Below are positions 18,584 to 20,055 of a DNA stretch of 45,489 bases, one piece after another. The DNA comes from Gammaproteobacteria bacterium (GTDB lineage: Bacteria > Pseudomonadota > Gammaproteobacteria > Acidiferrobacterales > Sulfurifustaceae). Position 1 is the stretch's first letter. Each line of letters begins with the position of its first letter. Below the pieces are notes generated by a model. The model was not told where the DNA came from. It worked only from the letters and a program-made list of their open reading frames with translations, and searched no databases. The position numbers were made by a program, and so were the translations under genes. Location of the stretch: assembly GCA_016199745.1 (NCBI GenBank), contig JACQFZ010000060.1:1-45489 (forward strand), written 5' to 3'.

Positions 18584-18659
18584 TGGCGCTCCCTAGGGGA
18601 TTCGAACCCCTGTTACCGGCGTGAGAGGCCAGCGTCCTAGGCCACTAGACGAAGGGAGC
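18584..18659 (-). tRNA. tRNA-Glu(CTC)
   Basis: A 76-base cloverleaf with encoded CCA. The acceptor GCTCCCT pairs with AGGGAGC, discriminator G. The anticodon stem CTGGC/GCCGG encloses the loop CTCTCAC, giving anticodon CTC, which reads GAG. The T-arm is AGGGG-TTCGAAT-CCCCT. It differs from the commoner UUC isoacceptor by the wobble base. Confidence 0.95.
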
Positions 18660-18703
18660 GTTGTAATGACTGACGAATAATGCCAGTGCCGCGGAAAGCG
18701 GCT

Positions 18704-18731
18704 ATTATACGTGGCGCTTTGACTTACACAA
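18704..18731 (-). promoter_or_regulatory. promoter of tRNA-Glu
   Basis: On the minus strand TTGTGT (18731-18726) and a perfect TATAAT (18709-18704) are 16 bases apart, about 45 bases before the tRNA. The same AT-rich block reads TATTAT on the plus strand and may also be used for pcnB. Confidence 0.5.
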
Positions 18732-18762
18732 CCGTATCACGCTGAGATCCAAGGTAAAAAAG

Positions 18763-20055
18763 ATTAAAGAACCTCTCATCATTCCGCGCGCCGAGCACTC
18801 GATCTCGCGCGCACTCGTCAGCGAAAACGCGCTCAAGGTCCTCAATCGATTGAAGGAAGCCGGCTACGCCAGTCTGCTGGTCGGCGGCTGTGTGCGCGAT
18901 TTGTTGCTGGGCCGCGAACCGAAGGACTTCGACGTCGTTACCGATGCGAGCCCGGAAGACGTCAAAAAGGTCTTCCACAGCGCGCGCCTGATCGGTCGGC
19001 GGTTTCGCTTGGCGCATGTGCGGTTCGGCCGCGAAATCATCGAAGTCGCGACCTTCCGTGCGGCACCGCCGGTCGGCGTTGATCTCGAAGTGCACGATCA
19101 CAACGTCTTCGGCACGCAGGAAGAAGACGCGCGCCGCCGCGATTTCACCGTCAACGCGTTGTACTACAACATTCGCGATTTCACCGTCATGGACTACGTC
19201 GGTGGAGTCGAGGATTTGCAGCGCGGGCTGTTACGCATCATCGGCGATCCCGTGATCCGGTTTCGCGAAGATCCGGTGCGCATGCTGCGCGCCGTACGTT
19301 TTGCCGCCAAGCTCGGTTTCCGGATCGACGACGCGACCGCCGCGCCGATTCATGAGCTCGGCGCGCAGTTGTTGACTGTTCCACCGGCGCGCATGTTCGA
19401 GGAAATCCTGAAATTGTTTCAGGGCGGTTATGCGCTTGCCACCTTCGAATTGCTGCGCAACTACGGACTGTTCCGCTATTTGTTCCCGATGACGGATAAG
19501 GCGCTGGAACGCGAACAGAACAATTTCCCACTGACACTATTACCGCAAGCACTCACTAATACCGACGCGCGTATCGCCGAAGACAAACCGGTAACGCCGG
19601 CGTTCTTGTTCGCCGCATTGTTGTGGGAACCGGTGCGGCAACGTGCTGCTGCGCGTGAAGCACAAGGCATGCGGTCGTCAGAAGCCCTCGAACGCGCTGC
19701 CGAAGAAATTCTGCACGAGCAGTTGAAGCACATCATGATCCCGAAGCGCTTTAGCGTGCCGATGCGCGAGATCTGGTCGATGCAATCGCGGCTCGAGCGC
19801 CGTTCCGGTCAGCAAGCGTTTCGCATGCTCGAGCACAAACGTTTTCGCGCCGCCTATGACTTTTTAGTGTTGCGCGCGCGCAGCGGCGAAGCTGACGCTA
19901 CGCTTGCCGAATGGTGGACGCGGTTTCAGGAAGTTGCCGAGCCCGAGCGTCGTTCGATGGTGGAGGCGGTCGTTTCGCCGGCGACGCCCGGTAAAAAACG
20001 CCGTCGCCGCCGTCGTCGTAGCGGCTCGTCGCCATCGCCCACCGCGCCGCAATGA
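18763..20055 (+). CDS. pcnB: poly(A) polymerase I, apparent AUU start
   Basis: A 430-residue poly(A) polymerase of the class II nucleotidyltransferase superfamily, which adds 3' tails that promote RNA decay. Visible: LLVGGCVRDLLLGREPKDFD (nucleotide-binding loop and catalytic DxD), RRDFTVNALYY, FREDPVRMLRAVRFAAKLGF, and an Arg-rich tail (KKRRRRRRRR). The conserved N-terminus IIPRAEHSISRALVSENALK lies upstream of the first ordinary start (TTG 18850), and the frame back to the stop at 18667 contains no ATG, GTG or TTG. ATT at 18763 has AAGG at 18751-18754, 8 bases before it, and is chosen as start. E. coli pcnB is known to start at AUU. It overlaps folK by ATGA. Confidence 0.93.
   Translation: MKEPLIIPRAEHSISRALVSENALKVLNRLKEAGYASLLVGGCVRDLLLGREPKDFDVVTDASPEDVKKVFHSARLIGRRFRLAHVRFGREIIEVATFRAAPPVGVDLEVHDHNVFGTQEEDARRRDFTVNALYYNIRDFTVMDYVGGVEDLQRGLLRIIGDPVIRFREDPVRMLRAVRFAAKLGFRIDDATAAPIHELGAQLLTVPPARMFEEILKLFQGGYALATFELLRNYGLFRYLFPMTDKALEREQNNFPLTLLPQALTNTDARIAEDKPVTPAFLFAALLWEPVRQRAAAREAQGMRSSEALERAAEEILHEQLKHIMIPKRFSVPMREIWSMQSRLERRSGQQAFRMLEHKRFRAAYDFLVLRARSGEADATLAEWWTRFQEVAEPERRSMVEAVVSPATPGKKRRRRRRRSGSSPSPTAPQ

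Follow-up and report, generated by a model that had tools for sequence, protein, structure and literature searches.

Probable translation of pcnB from an AUU start codon in a gammaproteobacterium and its relatives

We present a comparative analysis of pcnB, the gene of poly(A) polymerase I (PAP I), in a window of 45,489 nucleotides, the whole stretch of DNA analysed, from a gammaproteobacterial assembly of 4.26 Mb in 72 contigs. With a probability that we put at about 0.9, pcnB is translated from the AUU codon at position 18763 by way of the Shine-Dalgarno sequence AAGGT, and the weakness of this codon would keep PAP I low. The absence of other starts, the conservation of ATT among relatives and the conserved coding directly after ATT are observed in the sequences, while the use of AUU, its inefficiency and the discrimination of initiation factor IF3 against it are carried over from Escherichia coli by analogy. 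The features on which the analysis turns are as follows.

18584 to 18659, minus strand: tRNA-Glu(CTC) found with ARAGORN, the divergent neighbour of pcnB.
18667 to 18669, plus strand: in-frame stop codon TGA, which closes the pcnB frame on its 5' side.
18703 to 18709, both strands: TATTATA, read as TATTAT on the plus strand and TATAAT on the minus strand, a candidate common -10 element for pcnB (plus) and tRNA-Glu (minus).
18726 to 18731, minus strand: TTGTGT, a -35-like element of the tRNA-Glu promoter, 16 bases from TATAAT.
18751 to 18755, plus strand: putative Shine-Dalgarno sequence AAGGT, 7 bases ahead of ATT, 13 of 20 family genomes having AGGT in the equivalent position.
18763 to 18765, plus strand: putative start codon ATT (AUU); 18 of 20 family genomes share ATT in this alignment column, and none has ATG, GTG or TTG there.
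18763 to 20055, plus strand: pcnB (poly(A) polymerase I), 430 codons from ATT 18763 followed by the stop codon TGA at 20053 to 20055.
18850 to 18852, plus strand: TTG, the first canonical in-frame codon, which comes after the conserved N-terminus and is judged to be an internal leucine and not a start.

A preceding sequence-only reading had reported that the pcnB frame contains no ATG, GTG or TTG (hereafter canonical codons) from TGA 18667 to TTG 18850, and the frame is indeed clear: TTG 18850 is the sole codon of these kinds over 18670 to 18852 and is preceded by 60 codons without any. It was likewise borne out that a conserved PcnB N-terminus (IIPRAEHSISR...SENALK) is encoded 5' of TTG 18850, as the product matches both the start of the TIGR01942 profile and the E. 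coli PAP I crystal chain. The TIGR01942 match reaches 523.5 bits against a curated cut-off of 305.65, with residue 6 falling on profile position 1, and in the match to the crystal chain 3aqm (E 2.1e-126) query residue 5 corresponds to chain residue 3. A start at TTG 18850 would cost 29 residues and 31 bits of the profile score. Pfam matches comprise PF01743 (PolyA_pol, the head), PF12627 (PolyA_pol_RNAbd, RNA-binding) and PF12626 (PolyA_pol_arg_C, the arginine-rich C-terminus), and the cut-off of 702 of NF008634 (the PRK11623 equivalog) was missed at 469.9 bits. Judged by TIGR01942 and its domains, the product is a member of the pcnB subfamily that lies outside the narrower NF008634 model, and its polyadenylating activity is predicted. 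Downstream lie folK, a deoxynucleoside-kinase-like gene (dck), panB and panC, the names being read from the translations. Taken alone, the missing canonical codons are weak evidence, since a run of 60 codons without one would be expected by chance with a probability of about 0.06 (at a rate of 255 in 5494 in-frame codons of such regions), and the case is therefore carried by the comparison with relatives.

Another member of the genus of the source genome (G001, locus L004) shares its pcnB start with an Acidiferrobacteraceae bacterium (L105). The homologous column could be read in 52 genomes of a 57-genome order sample that includes the source genome; G027, G041, G048, G050 and G056 were left out. 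It can be seen that in the family of the source genome (f1) ATT occupies the column in 18 of 20 genomes, ATC standing at the column in G008 and one codon later in G010, and that a canonical codon stands there in 0 of 20. Upstream of the column, 12 of these 20 genomes have no in-frame canonical codon at all and 8 have some, a few of these lying no more than 12 codons away. A stop codon 0 to 2 codons ahead of ATT leaves no alternative start in seven loci (L005, L006, L012, L014, L020, L035 and L261).

Outside this family, ATT is present in 5 of the 6 genomes of f6, each time preceded by AGGTGA, and one f6 genome has an in-frame canonical codon near the start; f7 has ATT in two genomes, ATC in one and GTG in one. 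In-frame TTG, GTG or ATG codons near the start, all candidate starts, are present in f2 (n=5), f3 (n=1), f4 (n=14) and f5 (n=2), and in one f4 genome, G053, the ATT of the column is preceded by a TTG at a distance of four codons. ATT thus stands at the column in 26 of the 52 order genomes, G053 among them. Strong retention of AUU within the order is limited to f1 and f6, and the canonical codons of its other families indicate that a weak start is favoured and not required. The proposal that the weak start is retained in a gammaproteobacterial lineage other than that of E. coli accordingly holds for the family, and non-canonical starts recur in the class, but it is not fixed in the order. As a separate observation, the PcnB N-terminus of f4 is divergent and without the IPR..H motif, with an in-frame TTG near the start (L024-L027, L030, L031, L271-L276 and L279).

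The AAGG at 18751 to 18754 lies 8 bases ahead of ATT 18763, exactly as had been described. The alignment then suggested as a check upholds ATT, while the commonest core ahead of it in the family is AGGT (13 of 20; AGGTGA in 8 of 20) and not AAGG as such, the other genomes having AAGG, AGGA, GGAG or weaker matches. Tests of the Shine-Dalgarno match made without alignment columns were weak. Among 161 representative loci, ATT was the best-matched in-frame codon in 6 of 81 loci and likewise in 6 when the frame was shifted; matches of at least 5 preceded 19 of 184 in-frame ATT codons against 189 of 5310 other in-frame codons (p 6e-5) and 9 of 181 out-of-frame ATT codons (p 0.075). Column-based tests were therefore adopted, and the AUU case as argued from these alignments is built on column conservation and missing alternatives, not on the Shine-Dalgarno sequence alone.

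For the class-wide survey, 202 genomes were searched, of which 188 matched and 140 usable loci were obtained, the source locus included. Left out were the CCA-enzyme paralogue L002, duplicates identical over 180 bases (280 reduced to 254), two class loci with a frame running off the stretch and matches starting beyond query residue 13, and the dropping of four loci with fewer than 300 bases upstream gave 249 distinct pcnB loci. Before the conserved N-terminus, 23 of the 140 class loci have no canonical codon, 77 have one with a Shine-Dalgarno match below 4, and 40 have one with a match of at least 4. The 22 class loci without a canonical codon, the source locus aside, are spread over 20 families; an in-frame ATT has a Shine-Dalgarno match of at least 3, where a match of 3 is weak evidence, in 18 of them and of at least 4 in 12, and the remaining four (L154, L159, L219 and L232) have ATC or CTG at best. 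L232 (G190) and L154 (G242) are cases in which neither a canonical codon nor a convincing ATT precedes the conserved N-terminus.

A canonical codon ahead of the conserved N-terminus is lacking in 24 of 108 named or related loci. When scripts of one kind were applied to pcnB and to control genes, it was missing in 47 of 249 pcnB loci, as against 0 of 118 for folK, 0 of 63 for dck and 0 of 112 for panB, these control genes being drawn only from longer loci. On a quick, unrooted tree of 121 full-length proteins, 50 rows of which are unlabelled, at least 11 changes lie between the 25 loci without a canonical codon and the 18 with a well-placed one (43 labelled rows), and the number becomes 12 once 28 ATT-likely loci are added.

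The N-terminus itself exists in two forms. In the short form, that of the source locus, an isoleucine column lies immediately 5' of xxPxIIPR, whereas in the long form, that of Methylococcales-like loci and E. coli, a stretch such as ILNFFKKI begins at columns -14 to -26; the annotated ATT start of E. coli is at column -24, that is, 25 codons upstream of the source-locus ATT column. At the short-form isoleucine column, ATT, ATC and ATA occur 31:6:4 times in 41 distinct loci against 141:393:28 in the rest of the same genes, and at the long-form column 38:7:0 times in 45 loci against 383:326:119, with Fisher p values of 1e-10 and 3e-7 that are overstated because the patterns were picked after viewing the alignment and the rows are related. 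In the background, ATC is dominant in the short-form set (393 of 562) and ATT makes up less than half in the long-form set (383 of 828). No canonical codon lies upstream of ATT in 18 of 31 short-form and 22 of 38 long-form cases, and a Shine-Dalgarno match of at least 4 lies ahead of it in 22 of 31 and 21 of 38. Read from these alignments, the N-terminus varies in length while the weak start codon persists. The long-form protein starts with an amphipathic-looking stretch (ILNFFKKI..., IFTRVANF..., for example in L079, L084, L104 and L112) that the short form of the source locus does not have, and this stretch is possibly a membrane anchor.

Several other accounts of the pcnB 5' end were weighed against these comparisons. 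Being the first in-frame canonical codon, TTG 18850 is the start given by a mechanical list of open reading frames, and the conserved stretch upstream of it would then be untranslated; this is very improbable, as such a start would remove the IPR..H.ISR motif, with which both TIGR01942 and the E. coli crystal chain start, and relatives without TTG there conserve the protein stretch that precedes this codon. TTG is absent from that column in most relatives aligned, and no relative pointing to a start at TTG 18850, which the sequence-only reading had named as a possible refutation, was seen. The other refutation it had named, a sequencing error concealing an ATG, could in a single assembly be produced by one base, as could a frameshift joining ATG 18681 of another frame. 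The chance of either is negligible, for an error in one assembly cannot account for ATT in 18 family genomes (source included), several of which have a stop directly upstream. Three further weak codons, CTG 18670, ATC 18739 and CTG 18745, are in frame, and GGAG lies at an extreme spacing from the first of them; a start at any of these is nonetheless very improbable, given that CTG 18670 lies just beyond the edge of the tRNA gene, that ATC 18739 and CTG 18745 are preceded by no Shine-Dalgarno match of at least 4, and that in several relatives a stop codon separates these places from ATT.

A different objection grants AUU as the start and takes it for a relic without a role, persisting by chance with no selection for low PAP I. 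The repeated state changes on the tree and the canonical codons in other families of the order speak for this account. However, ATG is one base away from ATT and yet no family genome has it at the column, ATT is preferred to ATC although the rest of these genes has a different codon usage, and the canonical codon is never missing in the three control genes; chance persistence is unlikely, if less so than the accounts that place the start elsewhere.

Under the preferred reading, initiation at AUU 18763, the ribosome would bind at AAGGT, 7 bases upstream, and the initiator tRNA would start on AUU at a low rate, such that PAP I would be scarce. IF3 would discriminate against the AUU codon if the behaviour known from E. 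coli applies, and IF3-dependent control of pcnB is plausible in view of the ATC at the start of infC in this order.

Transcription of pcnB could perhaps proceed from the back of the tRNA-Glu(CTC) promoter, through its symmetric -10 box. A divergent tRNA-Glu(CTC) lies beside pcnB in 127 of 249 loci, each with at least 300 bases upstream, and on the plus strand in one; no other kind of tRNA occurs within 450 bases of pcnB among the 249 loci, and in the class sample the divergent arrangement is present at 67 of 140 loci. The intergenic stretch contains TATTATA exactly in 103 of the 127 divergent loci and TGNTATTATA in 81. On the tRNA strand, TATAAT has an upstream TTG, kept in 115 aligned loci, with 16-base spacing between the hexamers; in the pcnB direction there is an extended -10 but no conserved -35 in 80 aligned loci. 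At the source locus the plus-strand promoter-like match is ATGCCA-17-TATTAT, and the box is preceded by GGC and hence by no full TGN.

Within the source genome, exact TATAAT occurs in 2 of 28 tRNA promoters, that of tRNA-Glu(CTC) included, and only the latter has the following A. For a control on Glu tRNAs in genomes where pcnB has no tRNA-Glu neighbour, 45 genomes were searched for tRNA-Glu(CTC) and 30 best-match loci (L340-L369) were fetched; TATAATA was found in 1 of 17 Glu tRNAs with their own upstream region, and as the anticodon is TTC in 32 of the 34 Glu tRNAs of these loci and CTC in 2, few of them allow a like-for-like comparison. Most of these 45 genomes may have no CTC gene. Missing canonical codons showed no association with the divergent tRNA-Glu (22 of 127 loci with it against 24 of 119 without, p 0.62); they are thus independent of the tRNA neighbour, and AUU is not explained by the tRNA promoter. 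From the sequence of the box, pcnB and tRNA-Glu(CTC) perhaps share one bidirectional promoter with a symmetric -10.

A second weak start is present in the same genome. Its infC gene has ATC (1477 to 1479 of locus L280, contig 42) preceded by GGAGG in an open frame without a canonical codon. A search of 60 relatives found infC in 51; of 30 loci retrieved, 28 were parsed and 27 had a start readable by eye. At the homologous column of these order members ATC stands in 26 of 27 and ATT in 1 of 27, and the open frame is without a canonical codon in 21 of the 27 readable loci (22 of 28 counting the cut-off L301). Where both genes were read, 20 genomes combine AUU in pcnB with AUC in infC.

The AUU start of E. 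coli pcnB is already known. For AUU in pcnB outside E. coli, no description was found in the literature searched, including the available portions of PMC1780047, PMC13009471, PMC12779154, PMC9764084 and PMC4245954, and equally those of PMC8208693, PMC11742677, PMC9410913, PMC5601948 and PMC4227106; within the same scope of sources, no paper was found that joins pcnB, tRNA-Glu and the divergent arrangement. The portions of the literature so covered apparently contain no description of how widely AUU is spread in pcnB, of its retention while the N-terminus is remodelled, of the different weak codons of pcnB (AUU) and infC (AUC), or of the symmetric box that pcnB shares with tRNA-Glu(CTC).

A wider picture is put forward tentatively, as one that we consider possible and by no means expected, namely that the tRNA-Glu(CTC) promoter, read backwards through the symmetric extended -10 TGNTATTATA, drives pcnB in a broad range of gammaproteobacteria, and that an AUU "throttle" is kept in many lineages across different N-terminus lengths, with or without the neighbour. 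If this were true, RNA tailing would follow the same growth signal as a tRNA, and the contrast of AUU in pcnB with AUC in infC of the same genomes would make start-codon identity a tuned, gene-specific trait. A case that the literature covered describes for E. coli alone becomes a recurrent trait traceable on a tree, and the natural replacements by AUC, AUA, GUG, UUG and AUG offer contrasts through which the reason for a scarcity of PAP I can be approached. For annotation, gene callers restricted to ATG, GTG and TTG would shorten PcnB in such genomes, by 29 residues at the source locus. Where the neighbour is present, the symmetric box shared with tRNA-Glu(CTC) provides an easily testable view of pcnB transcription.

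Among known systems, symmetric bidirectional promoters with a shared pseudo-symmetric -10 between divergent genes are described in the available part of PMC12825309; the candidate box at 18703 to 18709 resembles them in having a -10 readable on both strands between divergent genes, and differs in that one side would be a tRNA gene. According to the portions consulted of PMC5472188, infC autoregulates via IF3 and non-AUG start codons of this kind are repressed by IF3. The source-locus pcnB is like infC in its conserved weak start codon and unlike it in that PcnB is not an initiation factor, so that any effect of IF3 on pcnB would be one-way. In Staphylococcus aureus, cvfC1 (AUU) and ccpN (AUA) are reported, in the accessible part of PMC13009471, to initiate, in reporters, at about 10% of AUG in poor medium, with ccpN reaching up to 30% in rich medium; they share with the source-locus pcnB a conserved non-canonical start with a Shine-Dalgarno sequence and, unlike it, are other genes of another phylum with experimentally mapped starts. 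The closest counterpart is E. coli pcnB, whose AUU start is stated in the parts available of PMC9764084, PMC4245954 and PMC9410913 and attributed to Binns and Masters 2002, as cited in PMC1780047, PMC9764084 and PMC9410913; in the RefSeq genome of E. coli strain A3, pcnB is annotated from an ATT preceded by GAGGTG. The two agree in gene, AUU start and a Shine-Dalgarno sequence containing AGGT. The E. coli AUU lies further upstream by the 25 codons given above, reflecting an N-terminal extension that is missing in the source-locus PcnB, and E. coli pcnB lies downstream of gluQ and dksA, whereas the source-locus pcnB stands beside a divergent tRNA-Glu.
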